From NCBI GenBank assembly GCA_030637565.1, contig DAOWGG010000012.1, positions 1 through 10,961 of the forward strand: 10,961 bases of DNA, given 5' to 3'. Below are positions 2,517-10,961 of this stretch, in pieces (positions within the stretch are counted from its first letter, which is position 1; each line of letters begins with the position of its first letter). Position numbers and translations under genes: made by a program. The notes beneath the pieces were generated by a model that worked only from the letters and a program-made list of their open reading frames with translations, was not told where the DNA came from and searched no databases. This DNA comes from Candidatus Peregrinibacteria bacterium. GTDB lineage: Bacteria; Patescibacteriota; Gracilibacteria; UM-FILTER-43-11.

Positions 2517-2567
2517 TATATTGTGTCAAATCATTTTTTGATTGAATTTTAAAATTATTCCCCATTG

Positions 2568-2576
2568 TGCTATTCT
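2568..2576 (+). promoter_or_regulatory. Extended -10 promoter for the 2602 gene
   Basis: TGC directly precedes TATTCT (2571-2576), matching the extended -10 element before the 1772 gene. No good -35 is seen. The predicted transcript would start about 18 bases before the ATG at 2602. The call is tentative because only one box is recognisable. Confidence 0.35.
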
Positions 2577-2601
2577 TTCCTTACTCTTAAAAAACAAATT
2601 T

Positions 2602-3117
2602 ATGTCTAATAAAACCTTTGCTAAAGTGATCGCCCTTCCTCGGGCTAAAGTTGCTCTTTTCGTTTTTTTCTTAGTGCTTGTTTCGGTTGTGCCTGCCTTT
2701 ATTCATGTTCAATGGATCACAGGACCAATGGTGAATGCTGTTCTTTTGTTGGCGGTTGTTTTGATTGGGCCGATGGAAGCAGTATTACTTGGATTGATGC
2801 CTAGTACCGTGGCTTTGAGTGCTGGGTTACTTCCACTTCCGCTTGCTCCTATGGTGCCGTTTATTATGTTGGGAAATGCCTTGTTGGTGGCTGTGTTTTA
2901 TCACTTGTATAAAAAGAATTTTTTTACAGCCCTTGGGATTGCGGCATTTTTAAAATTCGCCTTTTTACACCAATCGGTTGTATGGTTGATGAGCCGACTT
3001 TTAGATGAGCCCATTGTTTCCAAGTTAGCAGTGATGATGAGCTGGCCTCAATTTTTTACAGCTCTTGTTGGCGGAGGAGTGGCTTATGGAGTTTTGAAGG
3101 GGCTGAAGAAGGTTTAA
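2602..3117 (+). CDS. ECF-transporter S-component-like membrane protein, 171 aa
   Basis: This is an integral membrane protein with about five to six spans and a short basic C-terminus (LKGLKKV). The stretch from residue 39 (ITGPMVNAVLLLAV) through PSTVALSAGLLPLPLAPMVPFIMLGN, plus the C-terminal QFFTALVGGGVAYGVL, resembles substrate-binding S components of energy-coupling factor transporters. Such proteins bind vitamins or metals and pair with a shared EcfT-ATPase module encoded elsewhere. Relatives are often left as hypothetical or carry misleading names, so the substrate is unknown. The frame is open upstream to a TTG at 2542, but the ATG at 2602 is the better start because the upstream part would include the candidate promoter. 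No energising subunits are in the window. Confidence 0.6.
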   Translation: MSNKTFAKVIALPRAKVALFVFFLVLVSVVPAFIHVQWITGPMVNAVLLLAVVLIGPMEAVLLGLMPSTVALSAGLLPLPLAPMVPFIMLGNALLVAVFYHLYKKNFFTALGIAAFLKFAFLHQSVVWLMSRLLDEPIVSKLAVMMSWPQFFTALVGGGVAYGVLKGLKKV

Positions 3118-3222: not shown

Positions 3223-3858
3223 ATGTTTAACATTACTCATAAATTTAGTCGATTTTTGATCATTGGAGCTATTGTTTTTCTTTTACCCTTTTTCGCTTTT
3301 AGCACTTTTGCTCAAGAGGGTGCGTCGGAAAATACAGGCGCTGTTGTTGCCGAAGAGGTTGATGAAAATGAAAATGGGAGCGAAAGAAAGGGGTCTCTTG
3401 AAGGTCGAGGAAGGCTAGAGATGAAGGAGGAACGTGGTCAAGGATTAGATCGTCGAAGTGCTGTTGCTAACGCTGTTCATGAGCTTTTGGAGGTAGCCGA
3501 TCGTAGTGGTGGTATTGGAAAGCAAATTAGAGAACTTGCCATGGAACATAATGAAGGAGAAGAGAAAGCTAATAGGGCTTTAGATAAAGCCGAAGAAAGA
3601 GGTAAGGTAGCGAAATTTTTTATTGGACCTAATTACAAACAGCTTAAAAAGGTAGAAGAAAATCTTAAAGAACATAACAAGCGTTTTGCTGAGCTTGAAC
3701 AGCTCCAGTCTAAACTTGAAAGTAAAGCAGATGCTCAGCTTTTAGCTGAACAGCTCAAGACAATGGAGCAATCTCGTGATGAGCTTAGAGGAGAAATGGA
3801 AGCAACTCAAAAAGGCTTTAGTCTTTTTGGATGGCTGAATCGTTATCTTTCCAAATAA
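3223..3858 (+). CDS. Secreted coiled-coil protein, 211 aa
   Basis: The N-terminus is a classic signal peptide: a basic start, a hydrophobic core at about residues 11-25, and likely cleavage after AFSTFA (residue 30). A low-complexity acidic/Gly/Arg linker follows at about 31-75. The rest (76-200) is almost wholly charged helix with heptad character, especially 138-195, and is interrupted by a conserved-looking KFFIGPNYK turn at 131-139. It ends with an amphipathic FSLFGWLNRYLSK tail. I recognise this layout from uncharacterised Patescibacteria proteins but know no named domain. It has no catalytic signature, so an envelope-structural or partner-binding role is likely. The gene stands 105 bases from its upstream neighbour and ends 33 bases before a strong terminator. 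Confidence 0.75.
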   Translation: MFNITHKFSRFLIIGAIVFLLPFFAFSTFAQEGASENTGAVVAEEVDENENGSERKGSLEGRGRLEMKEERGQGLDRRSAVANAVHELLEVADRSGGIGKQIRELAMEHNEGEEKANRALDKAEERGKVAKFFIGPNYKQLKKVEENLKEHNKRFAELEQLQSKLESKADAQLLAEQLKTMEQSRDELRGEMEATQKGFSLFGWLNRYLSK

Positions 3859-3889: not shown

Positions 3890-3919
3890 AAAAAAGACCG
3901 CAGTAATTGCGGTCTTTTT
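3890..3919. terminator. Bidirectional rho-independent terminator
   Basis: A perfect inverted repeat has the core GACCGC (3896-3901) paired with GCGGTC (3909-3914) around a 7-base loop, extended by flanking A and T runs. T5 follows on the plus strand and T6 on the minus strand, so it can act in both directions. It lies 33 bases after the plus-strand gene ending at 3858 and 50 bases past the stop of the minus-strand operon at 3970. It is therefore the shared terminator of two converging transcription units. Confidence 0.9.
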
Positions 3920-3969: not shown

Positions 3970-4224
3970 TTATTTGTATTTGATCTTGAGCGTAAGAATT
4001 GTGCTGGTAAACATTAGAGTTATTCCATTTGCAATAATGAGTGGTAAATCCTGAATAAGAATTCCGTAAGTGAGCCATAGTATCACTCCTATTACTAGAA
4101 CTAAATACATGTTGAGTGATAGATCTTTAGTGTGTTTAGTTTTGATGATTTTAATCGCTTGAGGAAGGAAGGCCATGGTCGTGCAGATTGCAGCCAATAG
4201 TCCAATTGTGGTAATCCAATTCAT
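3970..4224 (-). CDS. SemiSWEET-type (PQ-loop) transporter, 84 aa
   Basis: Three membrane helices (about residues 4-23, 38-54 and 60-79) form one PQ-loop/MtN3 triple-helix unit. The PQ motif is at residues 21-22 (FLPQAIK). A Trp (50) and an Asn (66, IANG) fall where SemiSWEETs place their substrate-contacting Trp and Asn. Known SemiSWEETs are about 85-95 residues, work as dimers and facilitate diffusion of sugars across the membrane. The gene follows copA by only 10 bases and is the last of the operon, ending 50 bases before a strong terminator. The substrate here is not shown, and its place behind a copper ATPase is odd. Confidence 0.85.
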   Translation of the reverse strand: MNWITTIGLLAAICTTMAFLPQAIKIIKTKHTKDLSLNMYLVLVIGVILWLTYGILIQDLPLIIANGITLMFTSTILTLKIKYK

Positions 4225-4234
4225 AGTTGGTTTA

Positions 4235-6427
4235 TTAATATTTCACTTTAAATCTTTTTAACCTTAATGCATTCAATACAACGCTCACGGAGCTAAATGC
4301 CATGGCGCCAGCGGAAACAGCTGGAGAAAGAAAGCCAAGGGCTGCTAGTGGAATTCCAATGGAATTATAAAAGAAGGCCCAGAATAGGTTTTGTTTAATA
4401 TTGCGAAGCGTTGCTCGGGAAAGCTCAATAGCTTCGGTTGCTTTTTGTAGATCTCCTTTTACAAGCACTAGGTCTCCTGTTTCAATCGCTACGTCTGTTC
4501 CCGTTCCCATCGCAATTCCCACATCGGCTTTGGCCAGAGCGGGGGAGTCGTTGATTCCATCGCCAGCCATGGCCACAAAGTGACCGTCTTTTTGGAGTTG
4601 TGCGATGATGGCTGATTTCTTGTCGGGGGTCACTCCGCTGTGAACCTCGTCGATTCCTACTTCTTTGGCAATGGCGTTAGCCACTTTTTCATTATCTCCC
4701 GTTATCATCACGGTTTTGATGTGACGTTTTTTTAGAAGCTCAATGGCGTATTTACTGGATTCCTTAATGCCATCCTGAACACCAAATAGAGCGAGAATTT
4801 GTTCGTTGTTTGCGAGGCAGAGGACGGTATACCCCTTTTCTTGCATTTTCTCAATTTCTTTGTGATTTTCTTTGGTTATTACATCTAGATCCTTCATGTA
4901 TCGACTGCTGCCAAAGTGATATTCCTTTTTATCTATTTTACCTTTTACACCTAATCCAATCACTGCCTTAAAGTCATTTACCCTTTGCAAGCCTTTGATA
5001 AGATCCTCTTTCTTCACGTAGTCGATCACACTTTTAGCAAGAGGGTGTTCGGATTGTTCTTCTAGGGCGAGGGCGAGATTGTGAGCTTGGGCTTTATCAC
5101 CGTTTAACAGTTTGAACTCCTGCACTTCTGGATGACCTTTTGTGATAGTCCCTGTTTTATCGAAGGCGATGGCGGTGATTTTGTGAGCCTTTTCAAGGCT
5201 TTCTGTTTTTTTAATCAAAATACCCAACTGTGCGCCTTTTCCAGACCCTACAACAATCGAAATAGGAGTCGCTAAGCCAAGAGCACATGGACAGGCAATG
5301 ATGAGTACAGCAACGGTTGGAATAAGCGCACTGGTAATAGAACCGTTTCCTAAGAACATCCATCCTAAAAAGGTGATTGTTGCAATGGTCAGTACCCCCC
5401 ATACAAAATAGCCAGCGACTACATCGACTAATTTCTGAATTGGGGCTTTGTGCATCTGAGCGTCCTGCACCATCTTAATAATCTGAGAGAGCATGGTTTC
5501 ACTACCCACTTTGGTGGCTTTCATGGTAAAAGCAGTATTTCCATTAATAGTTGCACCGATTACCTTGTCTCCTTCCCCTTTATCTATCGGAATGGATTCG
5601 CCTGTCACCATGGATTCGTCGAACGCTCCATATCCTTCGGTGATCATTCCGTCGGTTGGAATTTTTTCACCTGGTTTCACGCGAAGTAAATCGTTTAATT
5701 GAACTTGGTCGGCTGGAATATCTTCGGTTGAACCATCTTTTTTCAGTCGATGGGCGACTTTGGCGGAAAGTTCCAATAGTTTTCTGATGGCAGTACTCGC
5801 TCTTCCTTTTGCTTTCGCTTCTAAATAACGTCCAAGCAATATAAAGGTGGCGATCACGGCGACGTCCATGAAGTATTCTTCGTGTATATCCGTGAATAAG
5901 AATAAATAGGTGGAATATAGAAAAGCAGCACCCATGCCTAAAGCTACTAAGGTATCCATAGCAGGTCGGCCTTTGAATAAATCAGGGATTCCTTTTGTGA
6001 AGAAATCTCGCCCACTGTAAAGAATAATAACCAGTGAAAGTAGCATCATTACTTCCATGCCTTTATCGATTTTCCAAATAAACCCAAGGCTTAAAATAAT
6101 CACTGTTAAAACAGCGGCAACCACTAATTTTTGCATGCGTTCTTTTATATGGGCGTTGTCTTCTTGTTGAGCGTGTCCGGCGTGGTCGTCTGCATCATGA
6201 CCTTCATGTTTGTCGCCTACGACGCTGGCTTTGTAACCCGCTTTTTTCACCGCATCGATAATATCTTTTTCGGTGAGCTTTTTGGGGTCAAAGGTAACAC
6301 TCCCTTTCTTTAAAGGCAGATTTACCACGGCTTCCTCCACACCATCCAATTCTTTTAAATCGGTTTCTACGTGAAGCACACAAGAGGCACAGGTCATGCC
6401 GTTGATCTTAATATTGATGGTTTTCAT
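4235..6427 (-). CDS. copA: CopA-type Cu(I)-translocating P-type ATPase, 730 aa
   Basis: This ATPase pumps monovalent copper out of the cytoplasm. One N-terminal heavy-metal-associated domain carries GMTCASC (residues 10-16). A His/Asp-rich linker (about 74-93, five His) leads into the first helices. The actuator TGES is at 275-278, the transmembrane CPC at 379-381, the phosphorylation motif DKTGT at 423-427, the HP motif at 461-462, TGDN at 576-579 and GDGINDSPAL at 622-631. The YN pair in helix 7 (687-688) and M709 with SS (712-713) in helix 8 complete the Cu(I)-ATPase signature, so Zn or Cd pumps are unlikely. The length is normal for a one-HMA CopA. It lies in an operon, 35 bases after a small Cys/Met-rich membrane protein gene, with a heptamer-repeat leader and no Shine-Dalgarno sequence. 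No copper regulator gene is visible. Confidence 0.97.
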   Translation of the reverse strand: MKTINIKINGMTCASCVLHVETDLKELDGVEEAVVNLPLKKGSVTFDPKKLTEKDIIDAVKKAGYKASVVGDKHEGHDADDHAGHAQQEDNAHIKERMQKLVVAAVLTVIILSLGFIWKIDKGMEVMMLLSLVIILYSGRDFFTKGIPDLFKGRPAMDTLVALGMGAAFLYSTYLFLFTDIHEEYFMDVAVIATFILLGRYLEAKAKGRASTAIRKLLELSAKVAHRLKKDGSTEDIPADQVQLNDLLRVKPGEKIPTDGMITEGYGAFDESMVTGESIPIDKGEGDKVIGATINGNTAFTMKATKVGSETMLSQIIKMVQDAQMHKAPIQKLVDVVAGYFVWGVLTIATITFLGWMFLGNGSITSALIPTVAVLIIACPCALGLATPISIVVGSGKGAQLGILIKKTESLEKAHKITAIAFDKTGTITKGHPEVQEFKLLNGDKAQAHNLALALEEQSEHPLAKSVIDYVKKEDLIKGLQRVNDFKAVIGLGVKGKIDKKEYHFGSSRYMKDLDVITKENHKEIEKMQEKGYTVLCLANNEQILALFGVQDGIKESSKYAIELLKKRHIKTVMITGDNEKVANAIAKEVGIDEVHSGVTPDKKSAIIAQLQKDGHFVAMAGDGINDSPALAKADVGIAMGTGTDVAIETGDLVLVKGDLQKATEAIELSRATLRNIKQNLFWAFFYNSIGIPLAALGFLSPAVSAGAMAFSSVSVVLNALRLKRFKVKY

Positions 6428-6429
6428 CT

Positions 6430-6464
6430 TTTAATTATGAGTTATGAATTATGAGTTGTGAATT
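6430..6464 (-). repeat. Heptamer tandem repeat in the copA leader
   Basis: Four contiguous 7-base units fill 6437-6464. In plus-strand form they fit RTGARTT, alternating between AGTT and AATT endings. A degenerate fifth unit lies at 6430-6436. The array covers most of the gap between the 113-aa gene and copA, overlaps the former's stop codon and ends a few bases before the copA ATG. It takes the place where a ribosome binding site would be expected. The period is seen directly; any function is unknown. Confidence 0.75.
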
Positions 6465-6804
6465 AGCGGATTCCCATTCGTTGTTCCATGAATTCTTCTA
6501 TTTCTTCGTGACATTCTTCGTCCTGCATACATTCCCACATCCCAGGGGTTCCGTAGTTGTATCCCCTTGAATACATATGACTTCGAAAGCCGAGCCCACC
6601 ACTAGCCATGCCGAGCAGCCATAGTAATGTTGCTGCAATCAGCAAACCAGCTCCCCAGCTAAGAAGCTGGTCCTTTTTAAGGGTTTTAATAGCCCAGACA
6701 AGTACAAGGATTAAGCCGATCAAGAAGGCTAAACAAACGAGTCCGTGAAGTCCGTACCAGAGACCGCCAAAACCACTTCCAGTTGAAAAATTTCCGTACA
6801 TCAT
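6463..6804 (-). CDS. Small two-span membrane protein with Cys/Met/His-rich tail, 113 aa
   Basis: I recognise no named family. The N-terminus is Gly/aromatic-rich. Two hydrophobic helices lie at about residues 21-40 and 48-68, joined by a short basic loop (KTLKKDQ). The C-terminal tail is acidic and dense in soft-metal ligands: M89, C92, M93, C98, H99, M106 and M110, in the arrangement MWECMQDEECHEE. This would suit copper binding next to the membrane. Short first and second helices with a KK loop would place both termini outside by the positive-inside rule, so the tail may face the exterior. The gene is 17 bases after the DUF302 gene and 35 bases before copA, which supports a copper-handling role by inference only. 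Confidence 0.8.
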   Translation of the reverse strand: MMYGNFSTGSGFGGLWYGLHGLVCLAFLIGLILVLVWAIKTLKKDQLLSWGAGLLIAATLLWLLGMASGGLGFRSHMYSRGYNYGTPGMWECMQDEECHEEIEEFMEQRMGIR

Positions 6805-6805
6805 A

Positions 6806-6826
6806 GTGTTAAAATTAAGGATTAAA
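6806..6826 (-). repeat. Short heptamer-like leader before the 113-aa gene
   Basis: TTAA cores recur at 6809, 6815 and 6822 in the gap between the DUF302 stop and the next ATG. They include a CTTAATT unit (minus strand) also found in the leader before the DsbA-like gene and close to the units at 9791-9818. The spacing is 6 and 7 bases, so the repeat is imperfect. Confidence 0.35.
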
Positions 6827-7214
6827 TTTGATTGATTACCTTTACTAGCTTTTGTTCAATCTCTTCGGCTATTGGATTGAGTTCTGAATTACCTACTATA
6901 TTCATTGTTTGAGTGGGGCGAATAGCAGAAGTGAAGATTTCGCCATCTTTTTTATAGATGATTATTTTGCAGGGAAGAAAGAGTCCAATTTCTGATTCTA
7001 CTTGAAGTGCTTTATAAGCATATGATGGGCTACAGGTTCCTAGAACCACGTAATCCTCAATATCTTTATCTAAGGTTTCTTTCATCTTACTCTTTATGTC
7101 GATTTTGGTGAGCACACCAAATCCCTCTTTCTTTAATGATTCTGTTGTTTTTTGAACCGCTGTGTCAAAGTCATAATCGACTTTTTTACTGTATCCATAA
7201 TTGGTTTGAATCAT
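6822..7214 (-). CDS. DUF302 family protein, 130 aa
   Basis: The core pattern VLTKIDIKSKMKETLDKDIEDYVVLGTCSPSYAYKAL followed by ESEIGLFLPCKIIIYKKDG is typical of the DUF302 family (spanning about residues 34-92). The family's conserved Cys in GTCSP (C61) and LPC (C82) are both present. There is no signal peptide, so the protein is probably cytoplasmic. The biochemical role of DUF302 is not established. Genes of this family are often found near thiol or metal genes. The protein is nearly full length for the family. It sits 11 bases after the DUF1573-rhodanese gene and 17 bases before a small Cys-rich membrane protein, so co-expression with the copper cluster is very likely. Confidence 0.9.
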   Translation of the reverse strand: MIQTNYGYSKKVDYDFDTAVQKTTESLKKEGFGVLTKIDIKSKMKETLDKDIEDYVVLGTCSPSYAYKALQVESEIGLFLPCKIIIYKKDGEIFTSAIRPTQTMNIVGNSELNPIAEEIEQKLVKVINQI

Positions 7215-7225
7215 GACTTATTTAG

Positions 7226-8491
7226 TTAAAGTGAATTAAAGGCGTTAATTCCACCCTCCAAATCATGTACGTTTGTATATCCAAGATTTACTAAGTCCTG
7301 TGCTGCGGAGCGACTCATGCTTCCGCTACGACAATAGATGATAATTTTAGAGTCTTTATTGGTGGGTAATTTATCGATGTTTTCGCTTATGTTGCGATAA
7401 TCAATAAATTCGTCAGTTCCAGGGATATGAGTCTGCTCAGGAATGTGAACATCTAGAAGAAAAAAGTCTTTACTCTTTAAATCTTCTTTTAAGTCCTCTG
7501 GTTCTATCAGATAAATCTTTTTCCCATTGTATTCAATTATTTCATCTTCATGATCATCATCGTCATCATGCTCTTCTTTGAGTTTGTATGCTTCTGGACC
7601 TAAATCCAAATCGATTTCTGCCCAAATTTTAACTTCAGGAATGACTTCCAGCTTTGGTTCTGTGAGAATAGAAACCGATTTAAAGAATTTTCCTTCTGGC
7701 TCTTCATGAAGATTTGGGTTAAATATAACGGTTAGAATTCCCTGATCACCTTTACTGAGTTTGTTTCGTGATATTTCTCCAGATGTACAAGCACAGCTTG
7801 CAGGGGTTCCTGTGATTTCAAGAGGTGTTTCTCCGTTGTAGGTGAAGCTGAAATCACGTTTTACAAGTCCTCCACTTTGTTTGATGATGCCGAAGTCAAA
7901 CTCCTTATCTTCAAAGGTAAAATCTCCCATTGTGAATTGGCTCTCTTTCTTAGGTTCTTCTTCCTTCATCTTTTTATTGTATTCCGATTTTGAGATGACA
8001 TTCCCTATTGCCTTTAGTTCAAAAACAGGGTCATTTTTAGAGCTTGTGATGATGTTGATGGATCGACTTATAGGACCCGTTGCCTGAGCGCCGTGATAAA
8101 GAGGATCAAAGGTGACTTCAACGTCAAATGTCTCATTTGGCTTAATTTCAGCGGCCCAGTATGACGCATTATTACTCATTCCGTAAGAGGGTGAGATGCT
8201 TTCATCTGGTAGTCGGAATCGAGCTTTCGTGCAGACGCAAGAGGTAAAAATACTTTTCAGGTATAGTGGCTCGTCGGATGTATTTTTTAGTGTAAAAGTG
8301 TGTTTTACATCACCCCCCTTAATATTAATGTCTCCCCAGTCGTAGGAAGCGTCGCCTAGAACTTCAATACTCCCAGAGTTTGTATTGTCTTTGTATTCCG
8401 ATTTCACTCGGTCACTTTTTGGAGTACACCCTGTTAGTATTACAGCTGATACTAAAATCCCTATGATGATGAGTCTTTGAATTGTTTTCAT
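7226..8491 (-). CDS. Lipoprotein with two DUF1573 domains fused to a rhodanese domain, 421 aa
   Basis: A signal peptide ends in the lipobox LTGC (residues 19-22), so the mature protein should be lipid-anchored outside the membrane. Two DUF1573 (ASH-like, beta-sandwich) domains follow, at about 42-165 and 190-293. Each has its conserved Cys-x-Cys: SCVCT (84-88) and SCACT (232-236). An Asp/His-rich run at 307-316 (EHDDDDDHED) forms the hinge. The C-terminal rhodanese domain (about 320-421) carries the active-site loop CRSGSMS with C387. Rhodaneses move sulfane sulfur through a cysteine persulfide. The exact role here is unknown; the CxC sites could bind copper or exchange disulfides. The gene begins 4 bases after the DsbA-like gene stops, showing tight co-expression. 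The fusion is complete, with no frameshift. Confidence 0.93.
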   Translation of the reverse strand: MKTIQRLIIIGILVSAVILTGCTPKSDRVKSEYKDNTNSGSIEVLGDASYDWGDINIKGGDVKHTFTLKNTSDEPLYLKSIFTSCVCTKARFRLPDESISPSYGMSNNASYWAAEIKPNETFDVEVTFDPLYHGAQATGPISRSINIITSSKNDPVFELKAIGNVISKSEYNKKMKEEEPKKESQFTMGDFTFEDKEFDFGIIKQSGGLVKRDFSFTYNGETPLEITGTPASCACTSGEISRNKLSKGDQGILTVIFNPNLHEEPEGKFFKSVSILTEPKLEVIPEVKIWAEIDLDLGPEAYKLKEEHDDDDDHEDEIIEYNGKKIYLIEPEDLKEDLKSKDFFLLDVHIPEQTHIPGTDEFIDYRNISENIDKLPTNKDSKIIIYCRSGSMSRSAAQDLVNLGYTNVHDLEGGINAFNSL

Positions 8492-8495
8492 ATTA

Positions 8496-9254
8496 TTATT
8501 TATTAAGTTCTCCTTCGATTATTTGTTCAAAATTACTGAAGGGCTGAGCACCAGAAACAAATTGATCGTTTATTAGGAAAGCTGGGGTTCCTCGTACTCC
8601 TGCTTTTCCACCGTCAGCGATGTCTTTTTGTACTTCATCTTTGTATTTTTCGCTGTCTAAGCATTCGGTGAACTTAGTTCTATTTACTCCTACTTCTTCA
8701 GCCAAGTCGTACAACTTTTCTTTTTGCATTCCACGTCCGTTGGAAGTGGTGTTTTCAAAAATTAGATCGTGGTAGGCAAAATAAGTGTCATCCCCACCTT
8801 GTTCACGTGCGCATTCGGCAGCTATGGCTTGCTGAGTGGCCAGTGGATCGTGAAATCCAAGAGGGAAGTCACGGAAAACTATTTTAACCTTACCTGTATC
8901 AACGTATTTTTCTTTAATGAGTGGATAAGTTTGAGTGAAATAACGTTTGCAGAATGGGCATTCGTAATCTGACCATTCAACTAAGGTTACGGGAGCATCT
9001 TTATCTCCCAGCACAGCGTCGTCGTCGGTGAAGTCACCCGTTACAACTTGGGGCTTATTGGCCTCAGCTTGAGCTTTGTTTGCCTCAACTTGTTGCTTTT
9101 GAATGTATTCTTCAATCCCTTCTTCAATCGCTGCTCCTAAGTCTCCACTTGGAGCGGATCCACCTTTTAGATAGGCAAAACCATTGAATACCAGGCCGAT
9201 TGTTACGATGACTGATGCTAATAATATTGTTTTTTTGAGTTCGTTTTTATGCAT
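8496..9254 (-). CDS. Membrane-anchored DsbA-type thiol oxidoreductase, 252 aa
   Basis: An N-terminal membrane helix (about residues 9-29) is followed by a Gln/Ala/Glu-rich helical spacer (about 40-68) and a thioredoxin-fold DsbA-like domain (about 72-250, Thioredoxin_4 type). The active site is DYECPFC, with catalytic C99 and C102. The cis-proline motif GTPAF is at 222-226. Two more Cys (C148 and C198) in the helical insertion could form a structural disulfide, as in other members of this group. The domain should sit outside the membrane and make, reduce or shuffle disulfides. It is sandwiched between a DUF2318 lipoprotein gene (35 bases upstream) and the DUF1573-rhodanese gene (4 bases downstream). 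Their paired cysteines are plausible substrates. Confidence 0.95.
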   Translation of the reverse strand: MHKNELKKTILLASVIVTIGLVFNGFAYLKGGSAPSGDLGAAIEEGIEEYIQKQQVEANKAQAEANKPQVVTGDFTDDDAVLGDKDAPVTLVEWSDYECPFCKRYFTQTYPLIKEKYVDTGKVKIVFRDFPLGFHDPLATQQAIAAECAREQGGDDTYFAYHDLIFENTTSNGRGMQKEKLYDLAEEVGVNRTKFTECLDSEKYKDEVQKDIADGGKAGVRGTPAFLINDQFVSGAQPFSNFEQIIEGELNK

Positions 9255-9257
9255 GGT

Positions 9258-9285
9258 GTTTAGGAATTAAGAAATGGGAAATATT
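9258..9285 (-). repeat. Loose heptamer leader before the DsbA-like gene
   Basis: The gap before this ATG can be read as four degenerate 7-base units (plus strand GTTTAGG, AATTAAG, AAATGGG, AAATATT). Only the middle one matches the clear arrays well. The segment nearest the ATG, CTTAATT then CCTAAAC (minus strand), resembles the leader of the 113-aa gene. Confidence 0.3.
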
Positions 9286-9289
9286 TTAA

Positions 9290-9787
9290 TTAAAAGAATT
9301 TTTGAATGTCTTTTAGCTTTGAGTTTGAAATTTTTATCATTCCATCCTCTACTTTTAAATCAGGACTAATCGGAGCAGGGTTACAACCTCCTTTTTCGGT
9401 GGCTACTTTGTCTAAGTGATAGCGGTTTCCACAGGTGTTACACACTATTTCATCACCCTCTTGTCGGAATCCTTGGAGTGCTGCACCACATACTTGGCAG
9501 CCATTTGCTGCAGCGCGTAATTTGCCATCAGGGCTTTTAACAACAAAGAAATAGGCTGATTTGCCGTCTGACATTGTTGTGTTATAAAAGTGAACCTTCC
9601 CGTCGCTCACGGTGGCGGCTTCAATGCTTATTCCATCATTTTCTAGTGGAATAAACATTCCTTTTTCACCTTTAAAGCTGGCAGATGTAGAGGCTTGAGC
9701 GTCATCTGTTTGATTACTTAGATCTACATTGGCACAGCCAGTGAGAATGCTAAGTGAGATTATGGTGATAATGAGATACTTTTTCAT
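9290..9787 (-). CDS. DUF2318 domain lipoprotein, 165 aa
   Basis: The lipobox LTGC (residues 15-18) marks a lipid-anchored extracytoplasmic protein. A DUF2318 domain follows: KVHFYN (64-69), FVVKSPDGKL (81-90), CQVC (97-100), CNTCGNRYHL (116-125) and GGCNPAPI (133-140). The paired CxxC motifs and the GGCNP Cys (C135) are the family's conserved ligands, probably for a metal or Fe-S centre; no CxxCH heme motif is present. DUF2318 proteins are known to neighbour FTR1-type iron permeases and thioredoxin-like proteins. No FTR1 is visible here, and the partner is instead a copper-type cluster. It lies between the SafE-cupredoxin gene (32 bases) and the DsbA-like gene (35 bases). Confidence 0.93.
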   Translation of the reverse strand: MKKYLIITIISLSILTGCANVDLSNQTDDAQASTSASFKGEKGMFIPLENDGISIEAATVSDGKVHFYNTTMSDGKSAYFFVVKSPDGKLRAAANGCQVCGAALQGFRQEGDEIVCNTCGNRYHLDKVATEKGGCNPAPISPDLKVEDGMIKISNSKLKDIQKFF

Positions 9788-9790
9788 TTT

Positions 9791-9818
9791 TTGTAAGGAC
9801 TAAGGATTAAGGGCTAAG
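9791..9818 (-). repeat. Four-unit heptamer repeat in the DUF2318 leader
   Basis: Exactly four contiguous 7-base units fill 28 bases. On the minus strand each begins CTTA, with variable last three bases (GCC, ATC, GTC, CAA). The array starts 2 bases after the stop of the upstream gene and ends 3 bases before the ATG at 9787. The length and number of units equal those of the array before copA, although the unit sequence differs. Confidence 0.75.
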
Positions 9819-9819
9819 T

Positions 9820-10961
9820 TTAATCAATAACAATAAATTTTCCACCAATCATTCCCATCCAACAGGAAAAGGGGAGCGTTCCGGATTTTTCGGGGGTGAA
9901 TTCAACGACATTCATTCCTTTTTTTATGTCTTTGCTGATACCCATTTTTGGAATAACGATTCTATTTGAGCACCCTGATACATTGACTCCGTTGATTTCC
10001 CAGCGAACAGGAATTCCTTTCTTAATTTTGAATTCATTGGGCTGGAAAGACCAATCCACATCCATTTTGACCACCTGTATATCTCCTGAGACGGCAGTGG
10101 CTTCTATGTTCTTGCCACTTGACCAGAAATTTAAATTCCCTCCTGCCAATACAAATCCCGAATTGAGTGAGTAAACGGCAAAGAAAACAATAATCACTCC
10201 AATGGCTTTGTTTAAGAATCCGAATTTATTTTGTCGGGCATAACTGGATCCCATTCCGATTGAAATCAGGGCGGGGAGCGTTCCAAGTGCAAAGGCTCCC
10301 ATGATCAAAGCGCCTGTTGCAAAGCTTCCTGATGCGACAGCAGCTAATTGCATGCTTTGGGTGAATCCACAGGGTAGAAAAAAGGTAAGGGCACCAATTA
10401 AAATAGGGGTGAGGTGATGATTGCTTTCTTCTAGGTTATGAATTTTTTTTGAGAGAAATTTAGGCAGATGAAATCCGAGTTTTGTGATATTGGGAACAAT
10501 ATTTAAAATCTGCAAACCTATATATAGCATTACAATGGCTACAATTGCCGTTAGCCAACCAGTGAAAGATAATGAATAGGTGATTTTACTTCCCACTAAA
10601 CCAAGGAGACCTCCAAGTAATACAAAAGCCCCGATACGCCCTGCATGAAAATAAAGATGAGGGGTAGCTCGTGAAAGAATGGGGTGTTTGGCGTCTGGGT
10701 GAACGGGGTACATTTCACCAAAGCTCATTACGAGTCCTCCTACTAATATAAGGCAGGTGGATAATGAAGCGACGACTCCCATCCCAATAGCAATGAGTGG
10801 ATTAACCTGTCCGCTTAAATCGGGCAGATATTTAGAAAATTCCAACTCTTTCAGTACAAATGCAACAGTAGCAACCATAATTAAAACAAATCCAATGTCC
10901 AGATAGTCATTGAATGTATTCTTATGAGCCTTGCTTGTCTTTTTTTCGTTCTCAGATACTA
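9820..10961 (-). CDS. SafE/DsbD-like membrane protein with C-terminal cupredoxin domain (5' partial)
   Basis: The frame is open to the right edge, so the start is outside; an internal ATG at 10876-10878 lies within a hydrophobic segment and is not the start. The visible part (numbered from that internal Met) has about seven membrane helices at 1-250 with two conserved membrane cysteines: STC (C42) and LPCGFTQSMQ (C170). This resembles the TauE/SafE and DsbD-like families that pass electrons or metal across the membrane. The C-terminal cupredoxin-like domain (about 268-352) carries a possible copper site: C303 in SGCSNRIVIP and C339 with two Met in SCWMGMIGG. Related proteins may carry an N-terminal HMA domain, which would lie beyond the edge. 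As the most upstream gene seen in the operon, it may supply copper or reducing power to the DUF2318, DsbA and DUF1573 proteins. Confidence 0.9.
   Translation of the reverse strand, partial: VSENEKKTSKAHKNTFNDYLDIGFVLIMVATVAFVLKELEFSKYLPDLSGQVNPLIAIGMGVVASLSTCLILVGGLVMSFGEMYPVHPDAKHPILSRATPHLYFHAGRIGAFVLLGGLLGLVGSKITYSLSFTGWLTAIVAIVMLYIGLQILNIVPNITKLGFHLPKFLSKKIHNLEESNHHLTPILIGALTFFLPCGFTQSMQLAAVASGSFATGALIMGAFALGTLPALISIGMGSSYARQNKFGFLNKAIGVIIVFFAVYSLNSGFVLAGGNLNFWSSGKNIEATAVSGDIQVVKMDVDWSFQPNEFKIKKGIPVRWEINGVNVSGCSNRIVIPKMGISKDIKKGMNVVEFTPEKSGTLPFSCWMGMIGGKFIVID

Follow-up and report, generated by a model that had tools for sequence, protein, structure and literature searches.

Whether eight same-strand genes at the end of a small contig form one envelope system for copper and thiols, and what such a system would do, is the question raised by contig DAOWGG010000012.1 of a Candidatus Peregrinibacteria bacterium, a member of the Patescibacteria that is ultra-small and uncultivated. 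The window analysed here is the entire contig of 10,961 bases, which belongs to a genome of 956,582 bases in 167 contigs, 79.3% complete. A sequence-only reading had labelled the run an envelope copper and thiol/sulfur module with a SafE/DsbD-like carrier and a Cu(I) pump. The locus belongs to a known class of copper operon, CsoR-SafE-CopA, as an unusual patchwork form extended by thiol proteins; its core is recurrent and its periphery variable. Two findings back the copper-and-thiol label: in other genomes these genes are linked to CsoR and CopA, and SafE has a copper site of the CupA type. The run is probably a copper-stress operon of the CsoR-CopA kind, which joins copper detoxification to the upkeep of thiols and of the cuprous state at the membrane.

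Each of the eight reading frames proves open and lies on the minus strand where first reported. From the contig end inwards, they encode a SafE-like DsbD_2 membrane protein with a C-terminal CupA-like cupredoxin, whose 5' end is lost at the contig end (9820..10961); an FtrD-like lipoprotein of PF10080 with two CxxC motifs and one further cysteine (9290..9787); a membrane-anchored, DsbA-like thiol oxidoreductase with a CPFC active site and a Thr-Pro motif (8496..9254); a lipoprotein with two Ig-like DUF1573 domains, each with CxC and His, and a rhodanese (7226..8491); a DUF302 protein with two conserved cysteines and no transmembrane (TM) segment (6822..7214); a small membrane protein with two TM segments, an MM start and a tail with Met, Cys and Glu (6463..6804); CopA, a Cu(I)-type P1B ATPase with one HMA (4235..6427); and, as the last gene, a SemiSWEET that is judged to stand outside the copper module (3970..4224). 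The gaps measure 32, 35, 4, 11, 17, 35 and 10 bases, so the range of 4-36 given earlier is right at its lower end and has a measured maximum of 35 at the other. Pfam and NCBIfam recovered the families that had been named, with DUF2318 now renamed FtrD-like PF10080 and SafE recognised as a gene cut short by the contig end. Seven of the eight proteins are membrane proteins or lipoproteins by hydropathy or lipobox. CxC or CxxC sites occur within the window in four (FtrD-like, DsbA-like, DUF1573-rhodanese and CopA), against the minimum of five proposed earlier; SafE would make a fifth through its lost HMA. A hairpin resembling an intrinsic terminator (3890..3919), shared with the convergent gene at 3223-3858, closes the run. 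Its minimum free energy is -18.6 kcal/mol (z -7.35), none of 200 shuffles folded equally well, and it was absent from the output of a simple terminator scan. Promoter-like matches (20, with a shuffle mean of 25.9) are not commoner than in shuffled sequence, and internal promoters are thereby neither shown nor excluded.

The tie to copper comes from what adjoins these genes elsewhere. In a sample of 288 genomes of the class (E up to 0.001, window genome included), SafE was found in 145 genomes, the CsoR family in 164, DUF302 in 49 and FtrD-like proteins in 8, of which 5 were over the cut-off. In addition, 91 SafE loci were compared, consisting of the best 80 of 563 relatives, 10 from a second search and the window; as the 80 were fetched by SafE, they are informative only on what adjoins SafE. 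The seven nearest by SafE protein, at 58-65% identity, come from metagenome-assembled genomes labelled Peregrinibacteria (2), Patescibacteria (2), Gracilibacteria (1), 'bacterium' (1) and Omnitrophota (1, perhaps mislabelled). A same-strand CopA of more than 500 residues lies within 3 kb of SafE in 77 of the 91 loci, and within 200 bases in 51. Twelve loci have no such CopA, some of them on short contigs; in the window and in L112 it lies just past 3 kb because other genes intervene. Immediately upstream of SafE, 42 of the 91 loci have a CsoR on the same strand; 6 leave no room for one, and 43 have room but no such gene. In the 67 CsoR frames from all the loci collected, the ligand columns hold Cys in 67, His in 66 and Cys in 67, with the spacing C-x24-H-x3-C, which fits a copper CsoR.

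Among the matches listed in the class sample, 54 of the 150 SafE places have a CsoR within 3 kb and 69 within 6 kb, compared with expected values of 0.46 (3 kb) and 1.53 (10 kb); genomes with a CsoR among the matches listed hold 80 of the 150. Likewise, 11, 17 and 20 of 49 DUF302 places outside the window are within 3, 6 and 10 kb of a CsoR or SafE among the matches listed, with 0.31 expected within 3 kb and 1.03 within 10 kb for assumed genomes of 1.2 Mb. Both linkages are far above chance. Linkage beyond chance is also evident for SafE with CopA and for FtrD with SafE, as all five over-cut-off FtrD-like genes, the window's included, are within 2 kb of a SafE on the same contig. Two further counts come without an expectation. 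Of 14 strong DUF1573 places outside the window (top rows, with two second pieces merged), 10 have a CsoR no more than 10 kb away. The small membrane protein (E <1e-5) is within 10 kb of CsoR, SafE or DUF302 at 24 of 53 other places, 7 of which are rows of the search profile; leaving these out gives 17 of 46 as a lower bound.

The SafE gene of the window encodes DsbD_2 (Pfam E 3e-34) and Cupredoxin_1 domains in an open frame of 379 residues, compared with 442-514 in its ten nearest relatives in the class sample. It is incomplete: it runs off the contig end, the frames of relatives are longer and homologues carry an N-terminal HMA. In relatives SafE is an HMA-7TM-cupredoxin fusion, and in an alignment of 89 rows (kept of 92 frames found) the two cysteines of the HMA CxxC are present in 83 and 82. 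The membrane cysteines Cys69 and Cys197 are invariant (89/89) and sit at or next to the points where the first and fourth core helices are interrupted. In the cupredoxin, Cys330, Cys366 and Met368 are kept in all 89 rows and Met370 in 88. This domain matches pneumococcal CupA with conservation of its two-Cys/two-Met Cu(I) ligands (ligand numbers from PMC5646241) and, unlike CupA, a small chaperone with a single anchor, it is joined to a multi-helix membrane part. The Pfam scan found no thioredoxin domain and no TauE match in the window protein. The VIA-align list for the SafE model had no CcdA/DsbD row; this list mainly covers soluble domains and so excludes nothing. In several genomes (for example G135 and G098) the SafE homologues have up to 41 in-frame TGA codons, and these lineages presumably read TGA as an amino acid.

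CopA scores 596.6 bits with TIGR01511 (cut-off 397) and has the motifs of a Cu(I)-type P1B ATPase, the pump of CsoR-CopA copper resistance operons: CxxC at 13, CPC at 379, YN at 687 and MAFSS (MxxSS) at 709. The FtrD-like protein matches PF10080 (E 6.2e-28), has the lipobox LTGC and keeps cysteines 97, 100, 116, 119 and 135 in 8 of 8 sequences. The DsbA-like protein matches Thioredoxin_4/DSBA, and NF041057 below its cut-off; C99, C102, C148, C198, T223 and P224 are kept in 17 of 17 (three of 20 frames, shorter than 200 residues, were dropped). Its best PDB matches are 4pwp, which we take to be Mycobacterium tuberculosis (Mtb) DsbA (4.8e-26), and BdbD (6.2e-21), followed by copper/metal-resistance or ScsC chains (1.4e-11 to 1.3e-9). 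DsbB and VKOR were not found in the own genome, which is weak evidence at 79% completeness. Ten of the 17 DsbA-like proteins, from L151, L152, L153, L166, L010, L019, L042, L076 and L159 (two), carry three or four His at positions 80, 106, 129 and 136 (window numbering), a candidate metal site near the CxxC; those of the window, L112 and L007 have no His there. In L159, which also has CsoR, CopA, DUF302 and DUF1573, one open frame (12110-13150, minus strand) joins DsbA and cupredoxin domains.

Pfam resolves the DUF1573-rhodanese protein into two DUF1573 stretches and a rhodanese, and 44 aligned rows share C85, C87, M105 and H133, and likewise C233, C235 and H262. The DUF302 protein keeps C61 and C82 in 8 of 8. 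The small membrane protein matches no Pfam or NCBIfam family over the cut-off, and a sequence search of 5.8 billion proteins found only itself; a profile search located its family, with the MM start, TM segment, W-x2-K and, in many, a Met-rich tail, in 59 of the 288 class genomes. As a lead only, a review (PMC13188914) tabulates DUF1573, NF041057 (DsbG-like), NF041115 and rhodanese families among predicted selenoproteins. Beside DUF1573 genes, five loci encode a membrane protein weakly like ArsG, with NPC and FPCSGG motifs in the three aligned (L153:5549-6193, L159:8720-9406, L166:8276-8920, L168:6036-7262, L169:8660-9904). Two labels for neighbouring genes were dropped: cluster c6, possibly a chained one, as a PCYCGC family (its members in L151, L168 and L169 have no Pfam match over the cut-off), and cluster c8 as a CcdA protein (Pfam gave no confirmation, and its NCBIfam ArsG-like matches are far below the cut-off).

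The eight-gene set was not seen in any other locus examined; its parts recur in two arrangements. The first has CsoR-SafE, with or without FtrD and DsbA, and then CopA. The order SafE-FtrD-DsbA-CopA agrees with two same-family loci; L007 has the window order minus the DUF1573-rhodanese/DUF302/small-protein cassette that precedes CopA in the window. The second arrangement is without SafE and has varying subsets and orders of CsoR, CopA, DsbA, DUF1573 and/or rhodanese, DUF302 and the small protein (L151, L152, L154, L163, L164; all six in L154). For the window CopA (69-81% identity), DsbA (70-74%) and FtrD (65%), the nearest relatives sit in loci of the first arrangement, mostly from the same family. 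Those nearest to its DUF302 (49-52%) come from the second arrangement in other families, and the best-scoring match of the DUF1573-rhodanese is L151 of another family (46% over 426 columns). The three-gene cassette may have arisen by insertion between DsbA and CopA. A simple foreign origin would be at odds with two observations. G007, a genome of the same family without a SafE match, holds split DUF1573 and rhodanese pieces at 44-61% identity and a partial DsbA (76% identity over 98 residues), and a full-length counterpart, 88% identical to the window protein, exists on another contig. The G007 loci (L156, L157) encode DUF1573, rhodanese, CopA and a multicopper-oxidase-like fragment. In the same-family L112, the place of the cassette is taken by a weakly thioredoxin-like protein, a putative methyltransferase (read by eye) and a rhodanese, with DUF302, DsrE and a Met-rich protein upstream of CsoR.

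The SemiSWEET (SemiSWEET_2; NF037968, 116.5 bits, cut-off 80) has homologues in 8 of 57 other relatives' genomes, none of them on a contig with a SafE or CsoR place among the matches listed (CsoR places of G051 excepted), and is treated as a bystander because no linkage to SafE or CsoR was seen. The set is not one conserved system, because the SemiSWEET looks like a bystander and the DUF1573-rhodanese, DUF302 and small-protein genes vary relative to the SafE core.

Several known systems resemble parts of the run. FtrABCD/P19 (FetMP) loci for iron uptake contain the permease FTR1 together with P19. Pfam found neither an iron permease nor a P19 among the 15 window proteins scanned, in a locus cut at the contig end, and the FtrD-like gene here is linked instead to CsoR and SafE. 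The Scs (suppressor of copper sensitivity) proteins, which include a DsbD-like membrane protein, also tie copper to a DsbA-like protein; the DsbA here scores better against Mtb DsbA and BdbD than against ScsC-type chains, and SafE is without a thioredoxin domain. SafE shares the DsbD_2 family and a conserved membrane cysteine pair with the CcdA/DsbD electron carriers, but its membrane part is flanked by copper-binding domains and not by thioredoxins. CstR of the cst persulfide operon lacks the metal-ligand His, whereas 66 of the 67 regulators of related loci keep it. Two further comparisons come from copper biology. The cop operon of Streptococcus pneumoniae (CopY-CupA-CopA) has a CupA-type cupredoxin with the same four ligands in a run with a Cu(I) ATPase; here the relatives use CsoR and not CopY, extra thiol proteins are present, and the cupredoxin is fused to HMA and 7-TM parts and predicted on the face opposite the HMA. 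In gut Firmicutes, COG2836 proteins bring HMA, DsbD_2 and DUF2318/FtrD-like domains together as a small part of an inferred CsoR regulon, according to PMC4938975. The relatives show the same HMA plus DsbD_2 pairing, with the HMA itself beyond the window; in contrast, here the FtrD-like protein has a lipoprotein gene of its own and SafE ends in a cupredoxin. The COG2836 fusion and the DsbA-cupredoxin frame of L159 support the tie to copper. The sequence-only reading knew of no description of the combination, and full-text literature searches gave none in the titles or abstract starts of the papers listed, with few subscription papers covered.

This context gives good support to a joint role of CopA and SafE in copper detoxification, and the relatives suggest that copper is sensed by a CsoR whose place, like that of the HMA, would lie beyond the contig end. 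CopA would export Cu(I). SafE would have its HMA on the cytosolic side and its CupA-type, two-site Cu(I) domain on the opposite face, joined by the DsbD_2 (CcdA-like) membrane part, and would most likely hold copper as Cu(I), bound at the membrane surface. PMC5646241 reports that the cysteines of pneumococcal CupA reduce Cu(II) in vitro and leaves their re-reductant unknown. This reduction and the invariant membrane cysteines are compatible with an outward flow of electrons through SafE, which is plausible. The membrane pair would then re-reduce the cupredoxin cysteines. Outside, the FtrD-like, DsbA-like and DUF1573-rhodanese proteins and, inside, DUF302 may repair or use thiols attacked by copper, or add Cu(I) sites; their roles and that of the small protein are inferred. 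In its fullest form, put forward tentatively, the HMA-SafE-cupredoxin protein would be a cupric reductase and Cu(I) chaperone that spans the membrane and reloads itself: electrons crossing the membrane on the cysteine pair would restore the CupA-type cysteines each time Cu(II) is reduced, and the DsbA-like, FtrD-like and DUF1573-rhodanese proteins would share these electrons and keep surface thiols reduced under copper stress.

Several observations weigh against this account. In 30 of the 91 SafE loci CopA is downstream and there is room upstream, yet no CsoR stands directly upstream, and 13 have neither; 29 of 49 DUF302 places are not near a CsoR or SafE among the matches listed. No CsoR was found in the own genome (79% complete), and no CsoR-type operator stood out, a C3-N0-8-G3 palindrome being found upstream of CsoR in 10 of 64 cases versus 283 of 3330 background windows. 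Of 48 plasmid records that encode a SafE relative, three were opened, and gene tables were present for two, from Deinococcus (L172) and Chlorohelix (L173). Both have a separate HMA gene after SafE and a two-component system nearby, and CopA is absent from both tables, which are incomplete; the Deinococcus SafE is close to mercury genes, and the family may therefore handle other thiophilic metals. The membrane side predicted for the cupredoxin hangs on one extra helix ahead of the DsbD_2 core, which hydropathy shows in 80 of 89 rows; a protein lacking that helix would have its cupredoxin turned towards the cytosol. In the pneumococcus, CupA handles copper inside the cell (PMC5646241, PMC7558416), so that an outward-facing copy would work differently.

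The cargo of SafE is where an alternative comes nearest. Rather than carrying electrons, SafE might be a Cu(I) conduit or exporter in parallel to CopA, handing the metal from the HMA CxxC over the two membrane cysteines to the cupredoxin. Both of its soluble domains are Cu(I)-binding folds, the window protein has no thioredoxin domain, and a separate HMA gene adjoins SafE on the Deinococcus and Chlorohelix plasmids; two cysteines would nevertheless make a thin metal path, and the family name DsbD_2 implies thiol exchange. This is a possible reading, though a doubtful one. Electrons are slightly favoured over Cu(I) as the cargo because of the DsbD_2 family and the cysteine-dependent reduction of Cu(II) by CupA (PMC5646241).

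Sulfur might also be the main business of the locus and copper secondary, with rhodanese, DUF302 and SafE handling reactive sulfur in a cst-like persulfide/sulfite or sulfur-relay module. The window has a rhodanese and DUF302, the sister locus L112 has DsrE and rhodanese, and homologues of CstR are often repressors of rhodaneses and of sulfite exporters (PMC10318464). This is unlikely in view of the ligand His in 66 of 67 regulators of related loci, of a SafE that belongs to DsbD_2, carries a CupA domain and does not match TauE, and of CopA in the locus. Similarly improbable is the supply of copper to an extracytoplasmic cuproenzyme in place of detoxification: a multicopper oxidase gene occurs in the related L151, but COX1 was not found in the own genome (79% complete), and the CsoR-CopA arrangement is typical of copper resistance. 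The adjacency could finally be fortuitous, separate functions lying side by side in a compact genome, as the order shuffled among loci and the unlinked SemiSWEET would allow. Against this stand the linkages of SafE with CsoR and of DUF302 with CsoR or SafE, far above the computed expectation, and the FtrD-like (5/5), DUF1573 (10/14) and small-protein (17/46) genes near the same partners, the last two without an expectation; for the run as a whole chance adjacency is very improbable, and for genes other than SemiSWEET it is already unlikely.

Three other genes of the window lie on the plus strand. An incomplete gene, open at the contig start (2-1114), encodes two SLH stretches and a CAP domain. 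An ECF-transporter-like membrane protein (below the cut-off) is encoded at 2542-3117, with two adjacent hairpins predicted in its leader (2475-2517), which folds no better than shuffles (z -0.69); the palindrome near 2505-2518 has no exact copy among 173 loci and no credible Rfam match. The gene convergent with the operon (3223-3858) encodes a charged, secreted-looking protein that matches no Pfam family over the cut-off.

With the run read as a copper-stress operon, copper-linked contexts are gained for DUF302, DUF1573-rhodanese, FtrD-like proteins and the unnamed small membrane family. If the proposed mechanism is true, copper detoxification and membrane thiol maintenance would be joined in one operon, and a self-reloading SafE would have built into a single chain the reductant still unknown for pneumococcal CupA. 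SafE would then be a defined protein for asking where the electrons for Cu(II) reduction originate. For the Patescibacteria, the finding means that reduced genomes retain and reshuffle an elaborate copper defence.

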